Assembly: GCA_021732785.1 (NCBI GenBank)
Contig: JAKFUG010000025.1
Span: forward strand, 1-64,000
Length of the DNA: 64,000 nucleotides
Reading direction: 5' to 3'
DNA from: Planctomycetaceae bacterium
Lineage (GTDB): Bacteria > Planctomycetota > Planctomycetia > Planctomycetales > Planctomycetaceae
The position numbers and the translations under genes are program-made. The notes below the pieces were generated by a model. The model ran no database searches. It saw only the letters and a list, made by a program, of their open reading frames with translations, and was not told the DNA's origin. Position 1 is the stretch's first letter, and the number at the start of each line of letters is the position of its first letter. Positions 25,292-34,266 of the stretch are shown here, piece after piece.

Positions 25292-26743
25292 TCAACCGCG
25301 AACGAACAATTCCCGCACGGGTTCACCCAAACCATCTTCCGTGGGATAGAACGGGCGGCCTTCCACTTCGAACGTGGTCTTCGGACTGATGCCCATCGCG
25401 GAGAAAATCGTGGCGTGCAGATTGCTCACGCTGACGGGATTCTCCACGGCGACGAACGGCCGCTCATCGGCCGATTTACCGTAGAGAAACCCGCGTTTCA
25501 AACCGCCGCCAAACATCAGCACGTTCGCCCCGCCGGTAAAGTGGCGGTGCTGGCCGTAGTGCTTCATCTCCTGCAGCTTCTCGACGGGGAACGTCGTTTG
25601 ATCGTTCGCGTTCGAGCCGGGCTTGCCTTCCATGATCATGTCGCGGCTGAACTCGCTGGCAACAATAATCAGCGTCCGGTCGAGCAGCTTGCGGGCTTCG
25701 AGATCGAGCACCAGTTGCGAAATCGCCGGGTCGATCTCCTGCTTCATCCGCACCAGCGTTTCGTGGCCGTTCGCGTGCGTGTCCCAATTGAGAAACGGCA
25801 CATACTCGGTCGTGACTTCGACAAACCGTGCGCCCGATTCCACGAGTCGCCGCGCGAGCAGACAGCCCTGGCCGAAGCGGCTGTTGCCGTAGCGCTCGCG
25901 GTTCTCATTCGGTTCGAGTTCCAGATCGAACGCCGCGCGATCGGAGGAACTGAGCAACCGATGCGCGTTGTCGACCGAGCGCAGATACGACTGCTGCTGG
26001 AAGTCGCTCATGCGGTCTTTGAGCGGACTGTTCTTGAGCAACTGTTGATGCAGCCGATACCGTTTGTCGAACCGGCCTGTGTCCATCCCCTTCGGCGGCC
26101 GTACCGATTGAGCCGCTTCCTCCGGGTACGGCAGCACCATTGGGCCGAACTCGCTGCCAAAGAACCCGGCGGTGGTGAACGCCTTCAGTTCTTCCGATTC
26201 GCCGACGCCTTCCAACCGTTGCCCGATGGTGATGAACGGCGGCATGACGGGGTTCTGGGGTCCGAGCACGCGGGCCATCCAGGCGCCGAGATGCGGACAC
26301 GCCACGGTTTGCGGCGGGACATAACCGGTGTGCCAGTGATACTGATGGCGCGAGTGCAGAATGCTGCCGAGATCGGGCAGGACATGCGAGCGGAGCAACG
26401 TCGCGCGGTCCATAACCTGCGCGATGCGTTCCAGCCCCTGTGTGATCTTGATGTTGTCGACCACAGTATCGATGGCCGGGAACGTGCTCTCGATCTCCTT
26501 GACCGGCACGCCAACTTCAAACGGCACGTATTTCTTCGGATCGAACGTATCCGGCGCGGCCATCCCACCGCCCATCCAGAGCAGAATACACGCATCGGCA
26601 GTCGGCTTGGGATGATCAACCGATTCGTCGGCATACAGACGCGGTTCGCGCACGGCCAGCGCGGCCGCACTCGCTGCTGCCATCTGCTTCAGAAAATCGC
26701 GGCGGATCAGTGATTCGGGCAGGTTTGGGTCGATGTCGTGCAT
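25292..26743 (-). CDS. Tat-exported DUF1501 protein
   Basis: A 483-residue protein of the DUF1501 family, an alkaline phosphatase/sulfatase-fold group that is greatly expanded in Planctomycetota. The twin-arginine motif is LIRRDFLKQMAAASAAALAV at 12-31. Metal-region motifs typical of DUF1501 are seen: CILLWMGGGMAAPDTFDPK near 53, RSHVLPDLGSILHSRHQYH near 118 and TLIIVASEFSRD near 365 with TGGANVLMFGGGLKRG following. DUF1501 genes nearly always follow DUF1549/DUF1553 genes with a cytochrome domain in planctomycetes, as here (the partner ends at 26865). The catalytic activity of the family has not been shown experimentally, to my knowledge. Confidence 0.92.
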   Translation of the reverse strand: MHDIDPNLPESLIRRDFLKQMAAASAAALAVREPRLYADESVDHPKPTADACILLWMGGGMAAPDTFDPKKYVPFEVGVPVKEIESTFPAIDTVVDNIKITQGLERIAQVMDRATLLRSHVLPDLGSILHSRHQYHWHTGYVPPQTVACPHLGAWMARVLGPQNPVMPPFITIGQRLEGVGESEELKAFTTAGFFGSEFGPMVLPYPEEAAQSVRPPKGMDTGRFDKRYRLHQQLLKNSPLKDRMSDFQQQSYLRSVDNAHRLLSSSDRAAFDLELEPNENRERYGNSRFGQGCLLARRLVESGARFVEVTTEYVPFLNWDTHANGHETLVRMKQEIDPAISQLVLDLEARKLLDRTLIIVASEFSRDMIMEGKPGSNANDQTTFPVEKLQEMKHYGQHRHFTGGANVLMFGGGLKRGFLYGKSADERPFVAVENPVSVSNLHATIFSAMGISPKTTFEVEGRPFYPTEDGLGEPVRELFVRG

Positions 26744-26762
26744 GGTGTTATCCTGAAGGCGT

Positions 26763-26853
26763 GCGGGGGGACGTCAGTCCCCTAGGTGATTCTCTCTTTG
26801 AATGTATTCCATCCGAATCAATGCAATCACCGGGGGGACTGACGTCCCCCCGC
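26763..26853. repeat. 20-bp inverted repeat between the DUF1549 and DUF1501 genes
   Basis: GCGGGGGGACGTCAGTCCCC (26763-26782) and GGGGACTGACGTCCCCCCGC (26834-26853) are perfectly complementary with a 51-base AT-richer centre. Each arm also contains the inner palindrome GGGACGTCAGTCCC/ACTGACGT. It would fold in the RNA between the two cistrons. Confidence 0.9.
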
Positions 26854-26864
26854 TCGCCAGCTTG

Positions 26865-29309
26865 TCATCGTACCAATTGAAATTCCGGAAGCATCAACAA
26901 AGTCCACAACAAATCGGCGACACCGGCTTCGCTGGCAACCGGGCCGAGAGTCGTCTGCGTGACTGTCAGTTCTTCCACGGTGGGAGAACGGCTCAATGCG
27001 GCCTGATACAACCACGGTACCAATGTCGCGGAAGCCGTTCCGTGTTCCCGCAGAATGTTTACCGCCCCGCGCTGCAGGAGTTCGGCGAGGGATGGCGAAT
27101 TGTTGAGGTCGAGCGCTTCCAGCATGCTGAGTTCGTTCGGCCGCATTGAGACGATCTGATCGCGATTCGGTCGACCGAGCGTGCGCTGTAAGAAGTCGGA
27201 TTTCAACAATGCCGCGCGAACCATCGGCTGCGGTCCATGCACGCCGTGGGCAAGGTTCGCCGCAAGGTCACTGTCCAATCGCTGCGACCACACATTCGGA
27301 CTGGCAATCACGACAGGCGATGCCCAATCGGTCGGCTCCTGCTTGAATTTGCCACGGGCATCGGGCTGCGACTTCGTCCATTCCCACGTCGCATCAGTCG
27401 CCACGGTTTGCGGTTCCCCTTCGGCAAACTTCCAGCGGGCCTCCAGGAAAATCGATGCGGGATTCGGACTGCTGCCGGCGTTCTTCGCGACGATGACAAA
27501 AACGTTGTCGCCCTTCTTCAGCACGTTGTCGAGCGCGACACTTTCGACCTGCTCCCAGTTGTCGCTGTTAGCGAGCTTCTGGCCGTTGACGTAGAGCGTG
27601 AAGGCATTGTCCGCGGTGATGACCGCTCCTGCGCGGACGGGGTTCTCCTTGAGATTCACCGTCTTCCGCACGGAGATCGTTTCCCCGGCCGCGGGAACGC
27701 CTCCATTGGCAGCGCTGTTGGACCAGATCCACTTCCCCTGGAGCGCGATTCCGTCGGCACTCGCCGGCTCGACTTTGCCGCGCTGAACCACGGCATCGAA
27801 CTTCTTCGGCGCGGTCTCGGTCAATTGCCACACCGCATCGACGAACTGTTCCGCGGTCAACCGTTTCGCGCGCGGTCCGGCAAAGTGATATTCACTCGGC
27901 GCTTCATCCGGCTGGATGATTTCCGCCTGGGACTGGTAAGCGTGGGAGGTCGCGATGAGCCGCAACGTGTGCTTGATGTTGTAACCATGTTCGGTGAAAT
28001 CGCTGGCGAGGAAATCGAGCAGGTCGGCACTCCACGGGGGCGTCTGCATGGCATCCAGTGGGTGAACGATCCCGTGTCCCATCAGTCGATGCCACAGTCG
28101 ATTGACCAGCGTTCGCGAAAACCGGCCGTTGTCCGGATGCGTCATCAACGCCGCGAGTTGCTGCATCCGCTCGGGCTGCGGGGCCTTGGGATTGATGTCG
28201 CCGATCTCGGGGAACAACCACTTCGCCGTCGCCTGCCTTCCGACAGGTTTGTCGCAACGATGGATTTCCAGCGGCGTCGACGAATAAATCGCGGCGAGTC
28301 CATACGCTTCGTCGAGTGTCCAGCGGTCGACGAAGCTGTCGTGGCAGGAAGCGCACTTCAGGTTGATCCCGAGAAACGCCTGGCCGACCGACTGCGCGAA
28401 TTGAATCTCGACGGTCTGCCCCGCGCTCACGTTGCCGCGCCACTTGATACCGTCCACAAACCCGGCGGTGTCCGCATTCGGAGCGAGCAACTCGCGGGCA
28501 AACTGATCGTACGGCCTGTTGTCGATGAGGGCCCGGTACAACCATTTGCTGATCTGCTTGCGGCCGCCGGTGATGAACCCGGTGCCGCCGTAGTCGTTTC
28601 GCAGCAGGTCATTCCAGAACGTCAGCCAGTGCTCAGCGTAGGCGGTGTCATCGTCGAGCAAGGAATCAATCCAGCGTGTGCGCCACTCGGGACGGCTGTC
28701 ATCAAACGCCTTGGCCATCGTTAGAGGTTCGGGTAACAGGCCAATCAGATCGAGTGACGACCGGCGGGCAAACGTGGCGTCATCAATCGGTGCCGGACGT
28801 GGTTGCTGATGCTTCGCCAGGTCAGCGTCCAGAATGCGGTCAATCGGATTCGTCCGCCCGTCCTGCGCCGGCGGCAACTCCGGTCGGCGCGGCTTGAGCG
28901 GTGGTTCATACGCCGACTTCGCAAAGGAGAAGCCTGCTTCCCACGGCAACCCGGCGTCGATCCATTCTTGCAGCACCCGCACCTGTTTCTCAGAGAGCCG
29001 ATCCCCTTGCGGCGGCATCTGTACGTCGGGATCGCGTGTCTTGACGAGCGCAATCAACTTGCTCGCCGCGCTCTTGCCCGGTTCGACGACTTTGCCTCCT
29101 TCCCCGCCAGCGAGCAACGTGGCCCGCGTGTTAAAGGAGAGCCCGCCCTTTTCCTGTTCGCCGAGGTGGCACTTGCCGCAGTGCGTCTTGAGAATCGGCA
29201 CGACCTCATGCGCGAAATCAGGGGCGGCGATCGCGACCACCGGAGCGACCGCAATGAGGAAGCCACTGAAGCATGCTGCCGTCATCGAGAGGACAAAACA
29301 ATTTCGCAC
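26865..29309 (-). CDS. Exported cytochrome c / DUF1549 / DUF1553 protein
   Basis: An 814-residue protein of a type characteristic of Planctomycetota. A Sec signal peptide (residues 1-29, MRNCFVLSMTAACFSGFLIA) precedes a haem c domain at about 30-115 with CGKCH and the downstream MPPQGDRLS methionine. DUF1549 follows (about 150-360; FARRSSLDLIGLLPEP, RWIDSLLDD, and the second Cys pair CASCHDSF near 325). DUF1553 is at the C-terminus (VNRLWHRLMGHGIVHPLDAM near 400, and MRPNELSMLEALDLNNSP near 735). An inserted beta-rich domain with AGAVITADNAFTLYVNGQKL near 560 looks like a carbohydrate- or ligand-binding module. It is the first gene of the series that continues with DUF1501, an MFS transporter and a creatininase-family enzyme. 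Confidence 0.93.
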   Translation of the reverse strand: MRNCFVLSMTAACFSGFLIAVAPVVAIAAPDFAHEVVPILKTHCGKCHLGEQEKGGLSFNTRATLLAGGEGGKVVEPGKSAASKLIALVKTRDPDVQMPPQGDRLSEKQVRVLQEWIDAGLPWEAGFSFAKSAYEPPLKPRRPELPPAQDGRTNPIDRILDADLAKHQQPRPAPIDDATFARRSSLDLIGLLPEPLTMAKAFDDSRPEWRTRWIDSLLDDDTAYAEHWLTFWNDLLRNDYGGTGFITGGRKQISKWLYRALIDNRPYDQFARELLAPNADTAGFVDGIKWRGNVSAGQTVEIQFAQSVGQAFLGINLKCASCHDSFVDRWTLDEAYGLAAIYSSTPLEIHRCDKPVGRQATAKWLFPEIGDINPKAPQPERMQQLAALMTHPDNGRFSRTLVNRLWHRLMGHGIVHPLDAMQTPPWSADLLDFLASDFTEHGYNIKHTLRLIATSHAYQSQAEIIQPDEAPSEYHFAGPRAKRLTAEQFVDAVWQLTETAPKKFDAVVQRGKVEPASADGIALQGKWIWSNSAANGGVPAAGETISVRKTVNLKENPVRAGAVITADNAFTLYVNGQKLANSDNWEQVESVALDNVLKKGDNVFVIVAKNAGSSPNPASIFLEARWKFAEGEPQTVATDATWEWTKSQPDARGKFKQEPTDWASPVVIASPNVWSQRLDSDLAANLAHGVHGPQPMVRAALLKSDFLQRTLGRPNRDQIVSMRPNELSMLEALDLNNSPSLAELLQRGAVNILREHGTASATLVPWLYQAALSRSPTVEELTVTQTTLGPVASEAGVADLLWTLLMLPEFQLVR

Positions 29310-29870: not shown

Positions 29871-31415
29871 CTATTCTGCCGAAACCACGCCAATTTCCAT
29901 TTTCCCGAGCACGGTGATCAGCGAAATGAAGGACGACAGCGGCGCGATGGAATCGTCTTCGGCAAAGAGGACGTCCGCCAGTTTGATGTGCGTGGCTCCG
30001 ATCCCGCCGCGGCCGAGAGTGCCATCGAGCGGAACCCACTTGCCGCCGAGCCGGGCTTCCGTCCACATGTGACCGCCGAAGGCTTGCAGCGAATCGACAT
30101 ACACCACGCCGACAGCAATCCGCGACGGGATCTCTTTGGCCCGCAGCATCGCCGCCAACAAGACCGCGTGCTCGGTGCAATCCCCTTCGAGACTGCGGGC
30201 CACTTCGCCGGCGGAAGCCAGCGCGGTGGAAAAATTCTTGTTCGTCAGTTTGTCGCGAACATATTTTTCCATCGCCCGGGCGATCGGTGCGGCGTCGGTC
30301 AAACTCCCGGCCGCTAACTTGGCGTGTTCGATCACGCGCTCATCATCGGATTGCAGGAACCGCGTGGGTCTCAGATATTCGTCGCCGATCTTTTCCGGAG
30401 GCGACGTCGCCGGAATGGGCAGCGCGATCACAGTCAGTTCCGCGGTTTCCGGACCGGTCGATTTGAGCGATTGCGTATCCCCCGTCGGCAGCACCTTGCT
30501 CGGATTGTCATCCCGGATCTTGATGCTGTAGACCACTTTCTTCGTGTCATACGGCCGGTTGATTTTCGCCGTTTTCACCAGCGTGCTGACACCGAGATCG
30601 AGATCATTCACCGTCAGCGTCTTGAGTGCCTCTTCCTTGGACACCGTGTAGGTGGCCATTTCGAGACCCAGCATCGACGTCGAACTTTTCACCGTCTGCC
30701 CGGCCTTGTCGACCCACGCATACGTGATGATGCCCGGCAGCAGGGAGTTGTCCACCTTGAATTTCTGCAGCGAGGATTTCTGACCGCCAAGCAATTCGAC
30801 GGGTTCGACATCGCCCGCGGTCACGGTCAACGTGCCGGGCTTGCTCATTTCAGGAAAGAACGCCTCGAATGCCTTGGTTTCCCCGGGTTTGAGCGGAGCA
30901 ATCCGTAGCAGGCGATCCTGGAATGTCGGCGATTTCACCCCCGCTTTCCACGGAGCGGTGGACGCTTTTTTCTTCCGATCAATCGTTGTTTCCAGTTGCA
31001 GTTCGGTGCCCTTCACCCGGCCGGTCGTCTCGGATGAACTCGCCGGGGGGTTGGTCATGCTGAAACGAAACTCCAGCAAGTCGCCGGCGAGTGTTTCCTC
31101 GGAGGACAACGAGGTGTTCATCTTGAGCACCTGCCCGAAACGGCGGATCGTCATCTGCGTTTCCGCCGAGGTATGCACCACCGGCTTGCCGTCGACTTCG
31201 CGAGGATCGATGAGCGCACGGGCATAACCCACACGTTGTCCGCCTAGGAAAATTGCCTGCCAGGTTTCTTCGCGTTCGGGAACCGGCAGCTTTTCGTCGG
31301 CCGCCTGAACACACCCCGTCAGCAACAGGCCCCACGTCAGGCAACAGGACCAACTCAACAGTGATTTCACGATGGATTTCCTTGCGCGTGATTGATCCGT
31401 GGACTCCATTCCCAT
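29871..31415 (-). CDS. Transglutaminase-like lipoprotein
   Basis: A 514-residue protein anchored by a lipoprotein signal (SLLSWSCCLTWGLLLTGC, with Cys in the lipobox). Residues about 50-330 are an extracytoplasmic domain of beta character with no clear family. The C-terminal part is a transglutaminase-like fold: Cys413 in SLEGDCTEHAVLL, His449 in FGGHMWTEA and Asp464 in VPLDGT, a complete catalytic triad. Such bacterial enzymes are usually proteases or peptide ligases rather than cross-linkers. The ATG at 31415 is chosen over the frame start at 31568, because the longer form runs through a palindromic repeat. It lies downstream of the ethanolamine ammonia-lyase fusion gene with the repeat pair between them. 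Confidence 0.8.
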   Translation of the reverse strand: MGMESTDQSRARKSIVKSLLSWSCCLTWGLLLTGCVQAADEKLPVPEREETWQAIFLGGQRVGYARALIDPREVDGKPVVHTSAETQMTIRRFGQVLKMNTSLSSEETLAGDLLEFRFSMTNPPASSSETTGRVKGTELQLETTIDRKKKASTAPWKAGVKSPTFQDRLLRIAPLKPGETKAFEAFFPEMSKPGTLTVTAGDVEPVELLGGQKSSLQKFKVDNSLLPGIITYAWVDKAGQTVKSSTSMLGLEMATYTVSKEEALKTLTVNDLDLGVSTLVKTAKINRPYDTKKVVYSIKIRDDNPSKVLPTGDTQSLKSTGPETAELTVIALPIPATSPPEKIGDEYLRPTRFLQSDDERVIEHAKLAAGSLTDAAPIARAMEKYVRDKLTNKNFSTALASAGEVARSLEGDCTEHAVLLAAMLRAKEIPSRIAVGVVYVDSLQAFGGHMWTEARLGGKWVPLDGTLGRGGIGATHIKLADVLFAEDDSIAPLSSFISLITVLGKMEIGVVSAE

Positions 31416-31483
31416 CACCGTCAGCGTACGCCACGCAGCGGGAAATCGGAAGCGGTCGCAATGATCACCACGGTCACGTTCTT

Positions 31484-31573
31484 CCGCTTGCGGTTTCGCG
31501 CCGCGTGATGAGACAAGCCAGTGGGGTCCGATCACGGAGTGATTTCCGCGCGAGGCGCGAAACCGCAAAGCGA
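31484..31573. repeat. Family 3 repeat as an inverted pair
   Basis: CCGCTTGCGGTTTCGCGCC (from 31484) and GGCGCGAAACCGCAAAGCG (ending 31572) face each other across about 50 bases. TCACGCG/GTGATTTCCGCG matches sit inside. Other copies are at 11676, 23630 and 58253. Confidence 0.75.
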
Positions 31574-31581
31574 TGTTGGGT

Positions 31582-33867
31582 TCACGTGGCGCGCAGCGTG
31601 CGCAGCAACCGTGTCACTTCAACGGCGGCGAGTTTCGGGGCGAGCGCCGTGTTCGCAATCCCCGCCACCACGCGCGTGAGATTGTGATCGACCTTGCCCG
31701 CATCACCCCACAAAGTCCCTTGCGGTGCCGTGAGGTAGACCGAGAACGTGCGGTGTCCGGTCCCGGGCCGTTCGCCGATGACATGCACCATCGCTCGTGG
31801 TCCGGCGAGATTCGCGAACAGCAATTCGCCGATGCGATAACCCGCCCGCACCCGCCCCGCCGTCACCACCAACGGGTCCGGTGCGACGTGAAACCGTTCC
31901 TCAACCAGATTCGCTCGCAGCGTCTGCAGGAACGGCGTCAACTGGTGCTGATCCATGATCGACAGCGCGTTCAAGCCGTCGGAGATGACGATCTGAACGT
32001 CGTACCGTCCGGCGTAATGATCGCGCAGAGACCTCACGGCTTGGGCGGCATCATCGCTCAGTTTCTCCCCCGATTCCGGTCGCAGGATGTACTCCCGCCG
32101 ATCGAGGGATTGCGTCTTCAGCTTGATTGCCGTCGGCAGCGATTGCAGAAATGATTCGTCGAACTCGGCCCAGATGCTCTCCTTCGCGTCGTCATAAATC
32201 CGGTGGATATCAATCGCCAGTTGCGGGGCGAGGTCAGACGGCTTCGCCCCGTGTCCCTCGGCGAGAAAGACGCCGCGGCTGCGAATAGACGCCATTTCTT
32301 CGCGCCCCGTTTGCAGAATGGCTTCGTCGCTACGCGCGTCCTGTTTACGTCGGCGGTATTGCCGATAGACCCACAACGGGTCGCCGAAATGCACGGTCGG
32401 TTGCCCATTCGCATCGATCACGCCGAGCTGCTGGAAGAACGCCCACATGCGGTCATTCACCTTGCAGCCGAACTTTTCGCGCAGCCGCACATGGTCCTGA
32501 AAGCCGGTCGTCAGGTAACCGAGCATCGGGTCGATCTTCGTGGGCAGTGCCATCAGGTACGCCGGTTGGGCCGGCACGAGTTGCTCCAGACACCAGTCGA
32601 GATCATCGAGCGAAACGTCCATGTGCAACGTCGAACAGACATCGAGCCCGAGGCACAAGCCATGCAGCTTGCCCATCACAATGTCTTCGAGGCAACACCG
32701 CACCAGTTGTTCGCGCGTGCGGAAGACTTCGGGGCCAATGAACCCGGCGACGTCGTTGAGATGGACCCACGGTTTCCCCGGATATCCCGCTGCCGCACGG
32801 GCCTTTTCGACCACTTGCGACAACGCCCGGGCAAAGCCGTATTTGCGGGATTCGTGCAGCACCATATCGTAGCCGTGACCGTGGCCGTTGGTGAAATCGG
32901 CTCCCTGACCGGTCTCGAAATACAGCCCGTACGGACCACTCCGTTGAGAGGCGTATTGCCGCATCTTTTCGATGGTGATGTCGAACGTGCCGTTGGCCGT
33001 GTCGCTTCCGGCGATGCTCTGAAACCATAACGCGGTGCTGCCAGGATCGATCCGTTCCACCTCAGCCTGCACATCGATATGGGACAATACACAGTGCGGC
33101 AACGCATCGAAGACGCCGAAGGTTCCCAGTACATCGAGCAACGTCCGCTCGATTGCCGCGACGGACTTCGGATCGCTCGACACCGGGTTGTTGCCGAGCA
33201 CGACATCGCCCACGGCATACGCAAAACCGTTGAAGACCTGCCAGCGAATATCGTCGACGTTGTCTGTCGGTGAGTTGGGTTGAATGCGTGCCCCGAGGTA
33301 CCCTTTCGCTCCCATCTGCGACCCCGGCAGCGGGTTGAAGACTTTCGCGCCCATCGCCGTCAACTCGGCGTTGGACATCAACTTCACCACGCCGCCGATC
33401 ACATCGCTCGACAACCCCGGCATGATGGCCTGAATCGCGGGTTCGTCCTGCGTCAACAAGAACGCCTTCAGTTCTGCGAACGTCCAGCCCGCGAGCTTTT
33501 GGCGCACGGCGGGATCGAGGCTGGCCTGGATCATGCGGTCAAGGTCGTCAACGCGCGGCGGATGGGCATCCATGTCGCCGAGTTTGGTCTGGCTCAGCAA
33601 CCGCCGGGCCAGGGCGCGTTCCTCATCATCCGCCGCGGCGACGCCGACGATCTCGTCCCCTTCCTTGAATTCATTCGCGGCTCCGAGCAACCGCTTGAAG
33701 AGGGCGTCGTCGAACCGTCCCTGCATGCGGTTGATGTACGCCAGCAGACTTTCCTCATGCTGAGTCGAGGCTTCAACGCCGAGACTATCGCTCCGGTGTC
33801 CGAGGGCGAGTGCCGCGGAACCGGTGGTGACGGCGGCCAGAAAATCGCGGCGATTCAGGGACGGCAT
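31582..33867 (-). CDS. eutBC: Tat-targeted ethanolamine ammonia-lyase, EutB-EutC fusion
   Basis: A 761-residue protein joining both subunits of adenosylcobalamin-dependent ethanolamine ammonia-lyase, which splits ethanolamine into acetaldehyde and ammonia. The N-terminus has a twin-arginine signal (SLNRRDFLAAVTTGSAALAL). The EutB barrel spans about 50-480, with GDVVLGNNPVSSDP, GLYFETGQGADFTNGHGHG and GFIGPEVFRT in the right order. After a linker, the EutC part (about 600-760) has YDVQIVISDGLNAL, GRVRAGYRIGELL and VIGERPGTGHR. These match the family motifs well, so both subunits look active. The ATG at 33867 has GGAAGGA seven bases upstream; 33888 is a longer alternative. No EutA, EutL, shell or transport gene is in the window. 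Export as a cofactor-loaded enzyme is inference from the signal. Confidence 0.92.
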   Translation of the reverse strand: MPSLNRRDFLAAVTTGSAALALGHRSDSLGVEASTQHEESLLAYINRMQGRFDDALFKRLLGAANEFKEGDEIVGVAAADDEERALARRLLSQTKLGDMDAHPPRVDDLDRMIQASLDPAVRQKLAGWTFAELKAFLLTQDEPAIQAIMPGLSSDVIGGVVKLMSNAELTAMGAKVFNPLPGSQMGAKGYLGARIQPNSPTDNVDDIRWQVFNGFAYAVGDVVLGNNPVSSDPKSVAAIERTLLDVLGTFGVFDALPHCVLSHIDVQAEVERIDPGSTALWFQSIAGSDTANGTFDITIEKMRQYASQRSGPYGLYFETGQGADFTNGHGHGYDMVLHESRKYGFARALSQVVEKARAAAGYPGKPWVHLNDVAGFIGPEVFRTREQLVRCCLEDIVMGKLHGLCLGLDVCSTLHMDVSLDDLDWCLEQLVPAQPAYLMALPTKIDPMLGYLTTGFQDHVRLREKFGCKVNDRMWAFFQQLGVIDANGQPTVHFGDPLWVYRQYRRRKQDARSDEAILQTGREEMASIRSRGVFLAEGHGAKPSDLAPQLAIDIHRIYDDAKESIWAEFDESFLQSLPTAIKLKTQSLDRREYILRPESGEKLSDDAAQAVRSLRDHYAGRYDVQIVISDGLNALSIMDQHQLTPFLQTLRANLVEERFHVAPDPLVVTAGRVRAGYRIGELLFANLAGPRAMVHVIGERPGTGHRTFSVYLTAPQGTLWGDAGKVDHNLTRVVAGIANTALAPKLAAVEVTRLLRTLRAT

Positions 33868-34266
33868 CGAGCGGTCCTTCCAATCCAAAACGCCGAGACA
33901 CCACAGCGCCGGTGAATCAGCCGAGGAGAACGCTCAGAATACCAATCGGAGGTCGATCACCATACGGCAGAATGCGATGTGGAACGCAAGTGGTGTCTGG
34001 TGTAGACGTGGTCGCCTCTCCCTCGTCCGCGGGGGAGAAGGTGTCCGAAGGACGGATGAGGGGGTCGCGTGCTTCGTCACGCCTCCGGTTTCAACACGCC
34101 CCTCACCCTAACCCTCTCCCCCGCAGACGGGGGAGAGGGGACCGGAGACGTTGCGGATTGTTCGACGGTGCCGTGCCGCCTGTGTTACCCTTTGCGATAA
34201 CATGCGAGGTTCGATCTCCCCCGCGCAGACGATTCGTTTTCGATTTCCTTGTGAACCCGATTCCGC
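33868..34266. other. Divergent intergenic region upstream of eutBC and the yhaO-like gene
   Basis: About 400 bases between eutBC (minus) and the nuclease gene (plus). Most is taken by the palindromic elements at 34017-34140. I saw no cobalamin-riboswitch-like box in the eutBC leader. Promoters for both genes should lie here. Confidence 0.5.
34017..34140. repeat. Palindromic elements of the CTCTCCCCCGC type
   Basis: CTCTCCCTCGTCCGCGGGGG (from 34016) and CCCTCTCCCCCGCAGACGGG (from 34112) are two related hairpins. The second is CCTCTCCCCCG...CGGGGGAGAGG, a 10-11 bp stem. The intervening bases contain the partly complementary GTCCGAAGGAC. Confidence 0.75.

Follow-up and report, generated by a model that had tools for sequence, protein, structure and literature searches.

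A single gene of a Planctomycetaceae bacterium encodes both subunits of ethanolamine ammonia-lyase, EutB and EutC, in one chain behind a twin-arginine (Tat) signal. We consider it probable that the product is an adenosylcobalamin (AdoCbl)-dependent one-chain enzyme that would be loaded with its cofactor in the cytoplasm, exported folded by the Tat system, and active in cleaving ethanolamine outside the membrane, with no importer needed. In textbook accounts, ethanolamine is broken down in the cytoplasm, in many cases with the help of an importer, a reactivase, and a protein shell. The fusion, the conserved signal, the kept active site, the missing reactivase gene, and the near absence of a permease-like gene were computed here. 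The gene, its fusion, and its signal are firmly established at the sequence level, and catalysis outside the membrane appears to be the best-supported reading.

The fused EutBC gene and its active site

The window, meaning the whole stretch of DNA that was analyzed, comprises 64,000 nucleotides of contig JAKFUG010000025.1. An earlier note on this DNA, made from the letters alone, had read EutB and EutC as parts of one open reading frame (ORF), and this was borne out: a minus-strand ORF occupies exactly 31582-33867, and both Pfam domains score above their cut-offs (EutB PF06751, 447 bits against 25; EutC PF05985, 115.3 bits against 25.8). The features are as follows.

31582..33867, minus strand: fused EutB-EutC ethanolamine ammonia-lyase, 761 amino acids plus stop, ATG start, N-terminal twin-arginine signal
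33778..33867, minus strand: twin-arginine (Tat) signal region, about residues 1-30, with RR at residues 6-7 and a hydrophobic stretch at ∼10-22
32395..33699, minus strand: EutB domain, residues 57-491 (PF06751), large subunit with substrate and radical site
32212..32394, minus strand: EutB-EutC linker, residues 492-552 (∼60 residues), mostly helical in the AlphaFold model
31591..32211, minus strand: EutC domain, residues 553-759 (PF05985), small subunit

The chain runs from the twin-arginine signal (RRDFLAAVTTGSAALAL) through a short spacer, EutB, and the linker to EutC. An in-frame TTG at 33888 would put seven extra residues ahead of the signal. The NCBIfam EutB subfamily model NF011649 also scores above its cut-off (587.3 bits against 554), while the NCBIfam EutC equivalog NF003971 reaches 89.8 bits, below its cut-off of 230, and 69.7 to 89.5 bits in nine scanned relatives. 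By these scores, the small-subunit part is a divergent EutC-type domain and not the EutC equivalog.

Five distinct PDB sequences were matched by phmmer (E 0.001), every one an ethanolamine ammonia-lyase chain, with best matches of 6e-70 for the EutB part and 6e-11 for the EutC part. The earlier note had called for comparison of the EutB active site by alignment, and all eight residues compared are kept: R194, Q196, N227, S284, E318, F376, D409, and L449 align with E. coli R160, Q162, N193, S247, E287, F329, D362, and L402, which we take to be substrate and radical-site positions, R160 being named also in the title of a reference. These eight are invariant in 11 sequences of the A-type clade described below (alignment A1); in a set of 37 sequences, D409 is conserved at 90% or above and the other seven do not vary. 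In the EutC part, G631 L632, G671 R672 V673, and G698 E699 R700 P701 G702 are invariant in 37 sequences, and the motifs around SDGL, GRV, and GERPG, some of which may contact cobalamin, align with E. coli EutC. At this level of motifs, the loss of cobalamin-binding residues in EutC that the earlier note had named as a refutation is not seen. An AlphaFold model of the fused protein, built with 37 sequences (pLDDT 90.8, pTM 0.89), matches the E. coli enzyme, with a TM by target of 0.88 for chain 3abo_A and 0.71 for chain 3abo_B; its first ∼30 residues are of low confidence (pLDDT about 43).

The twin-arginine signal across the A-type clade

The fusion belongs to a clade, termed A-type here, that is found in Planctomycetota, in Myxococcota, on Sinorhizobium plasmids, and in some metagenome-assembled genomes (MAGs). 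The gene is thus not restricted to planctomycetes, the group in which the earlier note had suggested counting it. In a sample of the phylum, 31 of 392 genomes match, and 16 of these are fusions at no less than 56% identity (A-type); an RR signal is present in 14 of the 16 (L003-L016) and missing from L017 and L018, which come from other families. Within the window's own family, 111 of 170 genomes match. Sorted by hand, 72 of them have an A-type fusion, with an identity of about 45 to 75% to the query (which is itself left aside in this range), and in the other 39 only other EutB types occur. Of at least 562 relatives in a wider contig search, the best 80 come mainly from Planctomycetota and Myxococcota. 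These 80 also include MAGs labeled Bacteroidia, Melioribacteraceae, Aminicenantes, Deltaproteobacteria, and others, labels that may be wrong, and the share of signals among them is biased upwards, which makes the family sample the fairer count. A close copy of the Sinorhizobium meliloti pSymA gene was found in 25 plasmid records (23 Sinorhizobium, one Ensifer, and one Pararhizobium), with the pSymA records of S. meliloti strains Rm41 and SM11 among those holding the gene. The pSymA protein (L186:6965-9313) shares 52% identity with the query and bears the signal TRRDLLLMAGATATLA, an N-terminus taken from one record.

A second group of fusions, B-type (L031, L032, and L174-L179), is about 30% identical to the query and has no Tat signal; a loose RR pattern is positive in three of six B-type stretches (L174-L176), where it lies upstream of the likely start with no hydrophobic stretch by eye. 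EutA lies beside the B-type fusion on the same contig in four planctomycete genomes (G435, G436, G449, and G485). On these grounds of identity, signal, and accompanying EutA, B-type fusions were set apart from the A-type kind, and they possibly represent a separate fusion event. One further candidate fusion, L019, was rejected for a stop between EutB and EutC.

That the gene carries a twin-arginine signal, as the earlier note had claimed, is supported by the Tat model TIGR01409, which matches residues 4-23 above its cut-off (19.8 bits against 16.7), and by conservation of the motif in relatives. Both a twin-arginine and a hydrophobic stretch stand at the translated N-terminal start, as in a Tat substrate. 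A strict Tat rule, which asks for RRx-hydrophobic and then for a stretch of 12 residues that has a high mean hydropathy and is free of D, E, K, R, N, and Q, was positive in 89 of 118 A-type loci, in 128 of 11,800 shuffled N-termini (1.1%), and in 0 of 14 non-A loci; on this evidence the predicted signal is not due to chance. After 20 loci with core identity of 98% or more were dropped, the nonredundant A-type set comprised 98 loci. RRx[hydrophobic] stands ahead of the EutB domain in 87 of these, is absent from 8, and is cut off by a contig end in 3 (L054, L096, and L133); the strict rule is positive in 72 of the 98. The eight untruncated relatives without a signal (L017, L018, L106, L116, L122, L125, L126, and L131) show that the fused enzyme also exists without one. 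In the window's family, the RR motif is present in 67 of the 67 readable A-type N-termini from the 72 A-type genomes (66 by pattern, and NRRNAL in L144 by eye), and four genomes (G404, G476, G484, and G496) hold A-type pieces without an N-terminus on the contig. Since a loose RR pattern is positive in 14.5% of shuffled N-termini, weight is put on the strict rule, on conservation, and on the lipoboxes described below.

Across 95 aligned N-termini, the two arginines are the sole columns conserved at 90% or more. TIGR01409 finds 26 of these N-termini even at E 0.5, and so the curated model alone would not reveal the pattern. Run on whole signal-bearing proteins, it recognized one of seven (L124) and missed Sinorhizobium and myxobacterial proteins.

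Codon changes between relatives also fit translation starting at the putative signal. In 11 pairs, the first 35 codons show 74 synonymous and 79 nonsynonymous changes, against 12 and 152 in the 35 codons upstream; these totals cover the 11 of 15 pairs with equal N-terminal length, pairs share members, two pairs show no change upstream, and the comparison is ungapped, so that indels add to the upstream total. Fisher's test gives a p of 3e-17, which overstates the contrast because of the ungapped comparison and the shared members. The core column of the comparison was left out, being misaligned for some pairs. Four close pairs that differ by few changes (L006/L007, L008/L010, L034/L035, and L047/L053), summed by hand, give synonymous-to-nonsynonymous ratios of 14:4 in the signal region versus 2:10 upstream. 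A start codon downstream of the Tat motif in most homologs would have counted against export; that possibility is not supported, since the count of signals among fused relatives, which the earlier note had asked for, stands at 87 of 98 nonredundant A-type loci and at 67 of 67 readable N-termini in the family, and the codon changes fit coding from the signal onward. Export of the fused EutBC is likely.

In Myxococcota, the Tat motif is followed by a lipobox in 8 of 13 loci (L085, L086, L101, L103, L114, and L119 by pattern; L064 and L070 by eye). The other five are L088, with a Tat motif and no lipobox, and L106, L116, L122, and L125, with no signal. The lipobox pattern was also positive in four planctomycete loci (L046, L069, L083, and L130), which were not counted. 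The lipobox is a mark of export that is independent of the RR motif; a lipobox and RR together would be hard to account for except as an export signal, and these myxobacterial proteins should be membrane-anchored lipoproteins. Two strains have two fused copies each, one with a signal and one without: Archangium violaceum (L086 and L116) and Myxococcus sp. RHSTA-1-4 (L070 and L106). The paired copies look as if they were outside and inside isozymes. On a FastTree phylogeny of 100 rows, the "no signal" state takes four changes, and for this reason the order of gain and loss cannot be set.

Genome context and the permease contrast

Profile searches found one copy each of EutB and EutC in the genome, both in this ORF. 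EutA had no match anywhere in the genome, and the best genome-wide score for the ethanolamine permease model TIGR00908 was 95.6 bits against a cut-off of 381.75. The earlier statement that there is no other eut gene thus holds genome-wide for EutA, for further EutB or EutC, and for the permease at its curated cut-off. The genome does contain microcompartment (BMC) shell genes, which lie away from EutBC on two other contigs, C10 and C40. The gene set that marks a Eut microcompartment system, in which EutA and BMC shell genes accompany EutBC, is not present here. The C10 stretch (L190, G000:C10:37000-55000) encodes, along with BMC shell genes, a PduL-type PTAC, acetate kinase, a DeoR regulator, and an aldehyde dehydrogenase; it is possible to imagine it as a sink for acetaldehyde. 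The genome also has a TatC gene and a member of the PF01923-type ATP:cobalamin adenosyltransferase family.

No conserved operon partner emerged among 68 loci (67 of at least 8 kb plus part of the window) in the 40 largest clusters; the neighbor clusters that recur are the gene itself, overlapping ORFs on other frames, or groups of up to four loci. Within the window, no cobalamin riboswitch matched Rfam at the gathering score. Directly downstream of EutBC lies a gene for a transglutaminase-like protein (29871-31568, minus strand) that is not conserved among relatives, and nearby (25292-29309, minus strand) are a DUF1501 gene, with an RRDFL N-terminus of its own, and a PSCyt1/PSCyt2/PSD1 gene.

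Ethanolamine is mostly a cation and is commonly brought in by a permease. In the window's family, a TIGR00908 permease-like gene scoring 200 bits or more occurs in 1 of 72 A-type genomes, in 23 of 39 genomes with only other EutB types, and in 17 of 59 genomes with no EutB, a threshold that was set after the list was seen, with genome sorting and scores entered by hand. With the curated cut-off applied, these numbers become 0 of 72, 8 of 39, and 13 of 59. G485, the sole A-type genome with a permease-like gene, holds a B-type copy and EutA besides. In some genomes with only split or B-type EutBC (e.g., G373 and G321) the gene directly adjoins EutB, and its presence in genomes lacking EutB means that it does not mark EutBC use. 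Of the 72 A-type genomes, 2 carry EutA, and each of these has a B-type copy as well; of the 39 others, 6 carry EutA. As the counts ignore kinship, the permease contrast may partly be a lineage effect.

Proposed mechanism, alternatives, and known systems

Folding and cofactor binding in the cytoplasm are the classical reason for Tat use. We propose that the fused EutBC would fold and take up AdoCbl in the cytoplasm, the location of the adenosyltransferase, and that Tat would then carry the folded unit to the outer side of the cytoplasmic membrane, where it may be free or membrane-tethered, with a lipoprotein form predicted in several myxobacteria. A large assembled oligomer is a harder Tat cargo by reason of size; the fusion would let one catalytic EutB-EutC unit ride on one signal. 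Outside the membrane, ethanolamine, which may perhaps come from phospholipids as the earlier note had suggested, would be converted to acetaldehyde and ammonia, both of which could cross the membrane unaided, and the cell would gain carbon and nitrogen without an ethanolamine importer. Extracytoplasmic cleavage with diffusible products would explain the missing permease. We infer that AdoCbl is loaded before export, that the enzyme acts outside the membrane on ethanolamine, and that the products enter the cell. AdoCbl enzymes lose cofactor during turnover, and how long an exported enzyme would work without an EutA gene is a real problem and the weak point of the best reading. We lean toward a broader view, on which the widespread A-type clade would consist of AdoCbl radical enzymes that work outside the cytoplasmic membrane and, in Planctomycetota, in Myxococcota, and on rhizobial plasmids, take the place of ethanolamine import, microcompartment, and reactivase.

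Export might occur with AdoCbl acquired outside, from free or scavenged cofactor, Tat being used for another reason such as fast folding or oligomerization. The AdoCbl site of the E. coli enzyme sits between EutB and EutC, so that a folded apo-unit could take up its cofactor later; however, cobalamin adenosyltransferase uses ATP and is cytoplasmic. Corrinoid reductive dehalogenases are a precedent for a corrinoid enzyme carried to the P-side by Tat (PMC10624902), and we regard acquisition outside as improbable. An N-terminal RR stretch that is no working signal in the native host, leaving the enzyme cytoplasmic like other EutBC, would agree with the eight signal-less fused relatives and with the 69 of 95 N-termini that TIGR01409 misses at E 0.5. 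Yet all 67 readable N-termini of the family keep RR even as the surrounding region diverges, lipobox versions occur in Myxococcota, the codon changes fit coding from the signal, and the permease-like gene is nearly absent from A-type genomes; a cytoplasmic enzyme is accordingly unlikely in our estimation.

The protein could also have left ethanolamine behind, as an exported corrinoid-binding or storage protein or as a lyase for another amino alcohol. Such a change of function would suit the lack of a conserved ethanolamine-related neighbor and the score of the EutC part under the NF003971 equivalog cut-off, and a close amino alcohol such as 2-amino-1-propanol is conceivable, an ethanolamine ammonia-lyase having been crystallized with it according to a PDB entry title. 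A protein that merely binds would, however, be expected to lose the eight active-site positions, which are invariant in 11 sequences, and we think this explanation quite improbable.

The E. coli and Salmonella enzymes (3abo and 5ysr) share with the fused protein the domain order, the fold, and the eight active-site residues; there, EutB and EutC are two separate subunits, whereas here one chain bears an export signal in a genome with no EutA gene. According to the relevant portion of one account, EutB and EutC are commonly accompanied by EutA, EutT, and a microcompartment (PMC5821096). The fusion itself is not new: fused EutBC1 and EutBC2 of Pelobacter carbinolicus, joining large and small subunits, were noted in 2012 (PMC3543383). 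As the passages of that paper on these genes have it, fused EutBC occurs without eutA in strains growing on ethanolamine, and the EutBC genes adjoin cobalamin genes and genes for periplasmic substrate-binding and membrane proteins thought to serve ethanolamine or choline uptake (PMC3543383). The fusion is common to P. carbinolicus and the window, a likeness drawn from the published description, and those passages mention no signal on EutBC.

Handling of ethanolamine without a reactivase or microcompartment is known in Acinetobacter: in the part of the study that treats growth, A. baumannii EutBC supports it without EutA and without a metabolosome (PMC9426561). There, eutB and eutC are separate, eutH, a putative permease, adjoins eutB, and AbEutC is described by the authors as having no predicted N-terminal (microcompartment) signal sequence (PMC9426561). 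As far as those passages go, both systems do without EutA, A. baumannii with separate genes and a putative permease, and the one described here with a fused enzyme and an export signal. Because EutBC of A. baumannii and of P. carbinolicus manages without eutA, the lack of EutA need not be fatal to catalysis outside the membrane.

Respiratory reductive dehalogenases are corrinoid enzymes that Tat delivers to the outer side of the cytoplasmic membrane (PMC10624902); they are unrelated proteins with Co(I) chemistry and FeS clusters, in contrast to the adenosylcobalamin radical chemistry of the fused EutBC. A full-text search of the open-licence literature found no report of an exported or Tat-borne ethanolamine ammonia-lyase, and one may exist elsewhere. 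As far as that literature shows, the exported fused EutBC, if active there, would be the first known AdoCbl radical enzyme outside the membrane, a known enzyme in an unexpected place, with the fusion already described and the predicted export new. If the enzyme works outside, B12 radical catalysis would not be tied to the cytoplasm, toxic acetaldehyde would be made away from it, and eut operons would be no guide to ethanolamine use. With 72 of 170 genomes carrying it, the gene is common in the family of the window, and it also occurs in S. meliloti, a bench organism, which makes the idea directly testable. On the Sinorhizobium plasmids, the Tat-tagged fused EutBC is annotated, where at all, as EutB.
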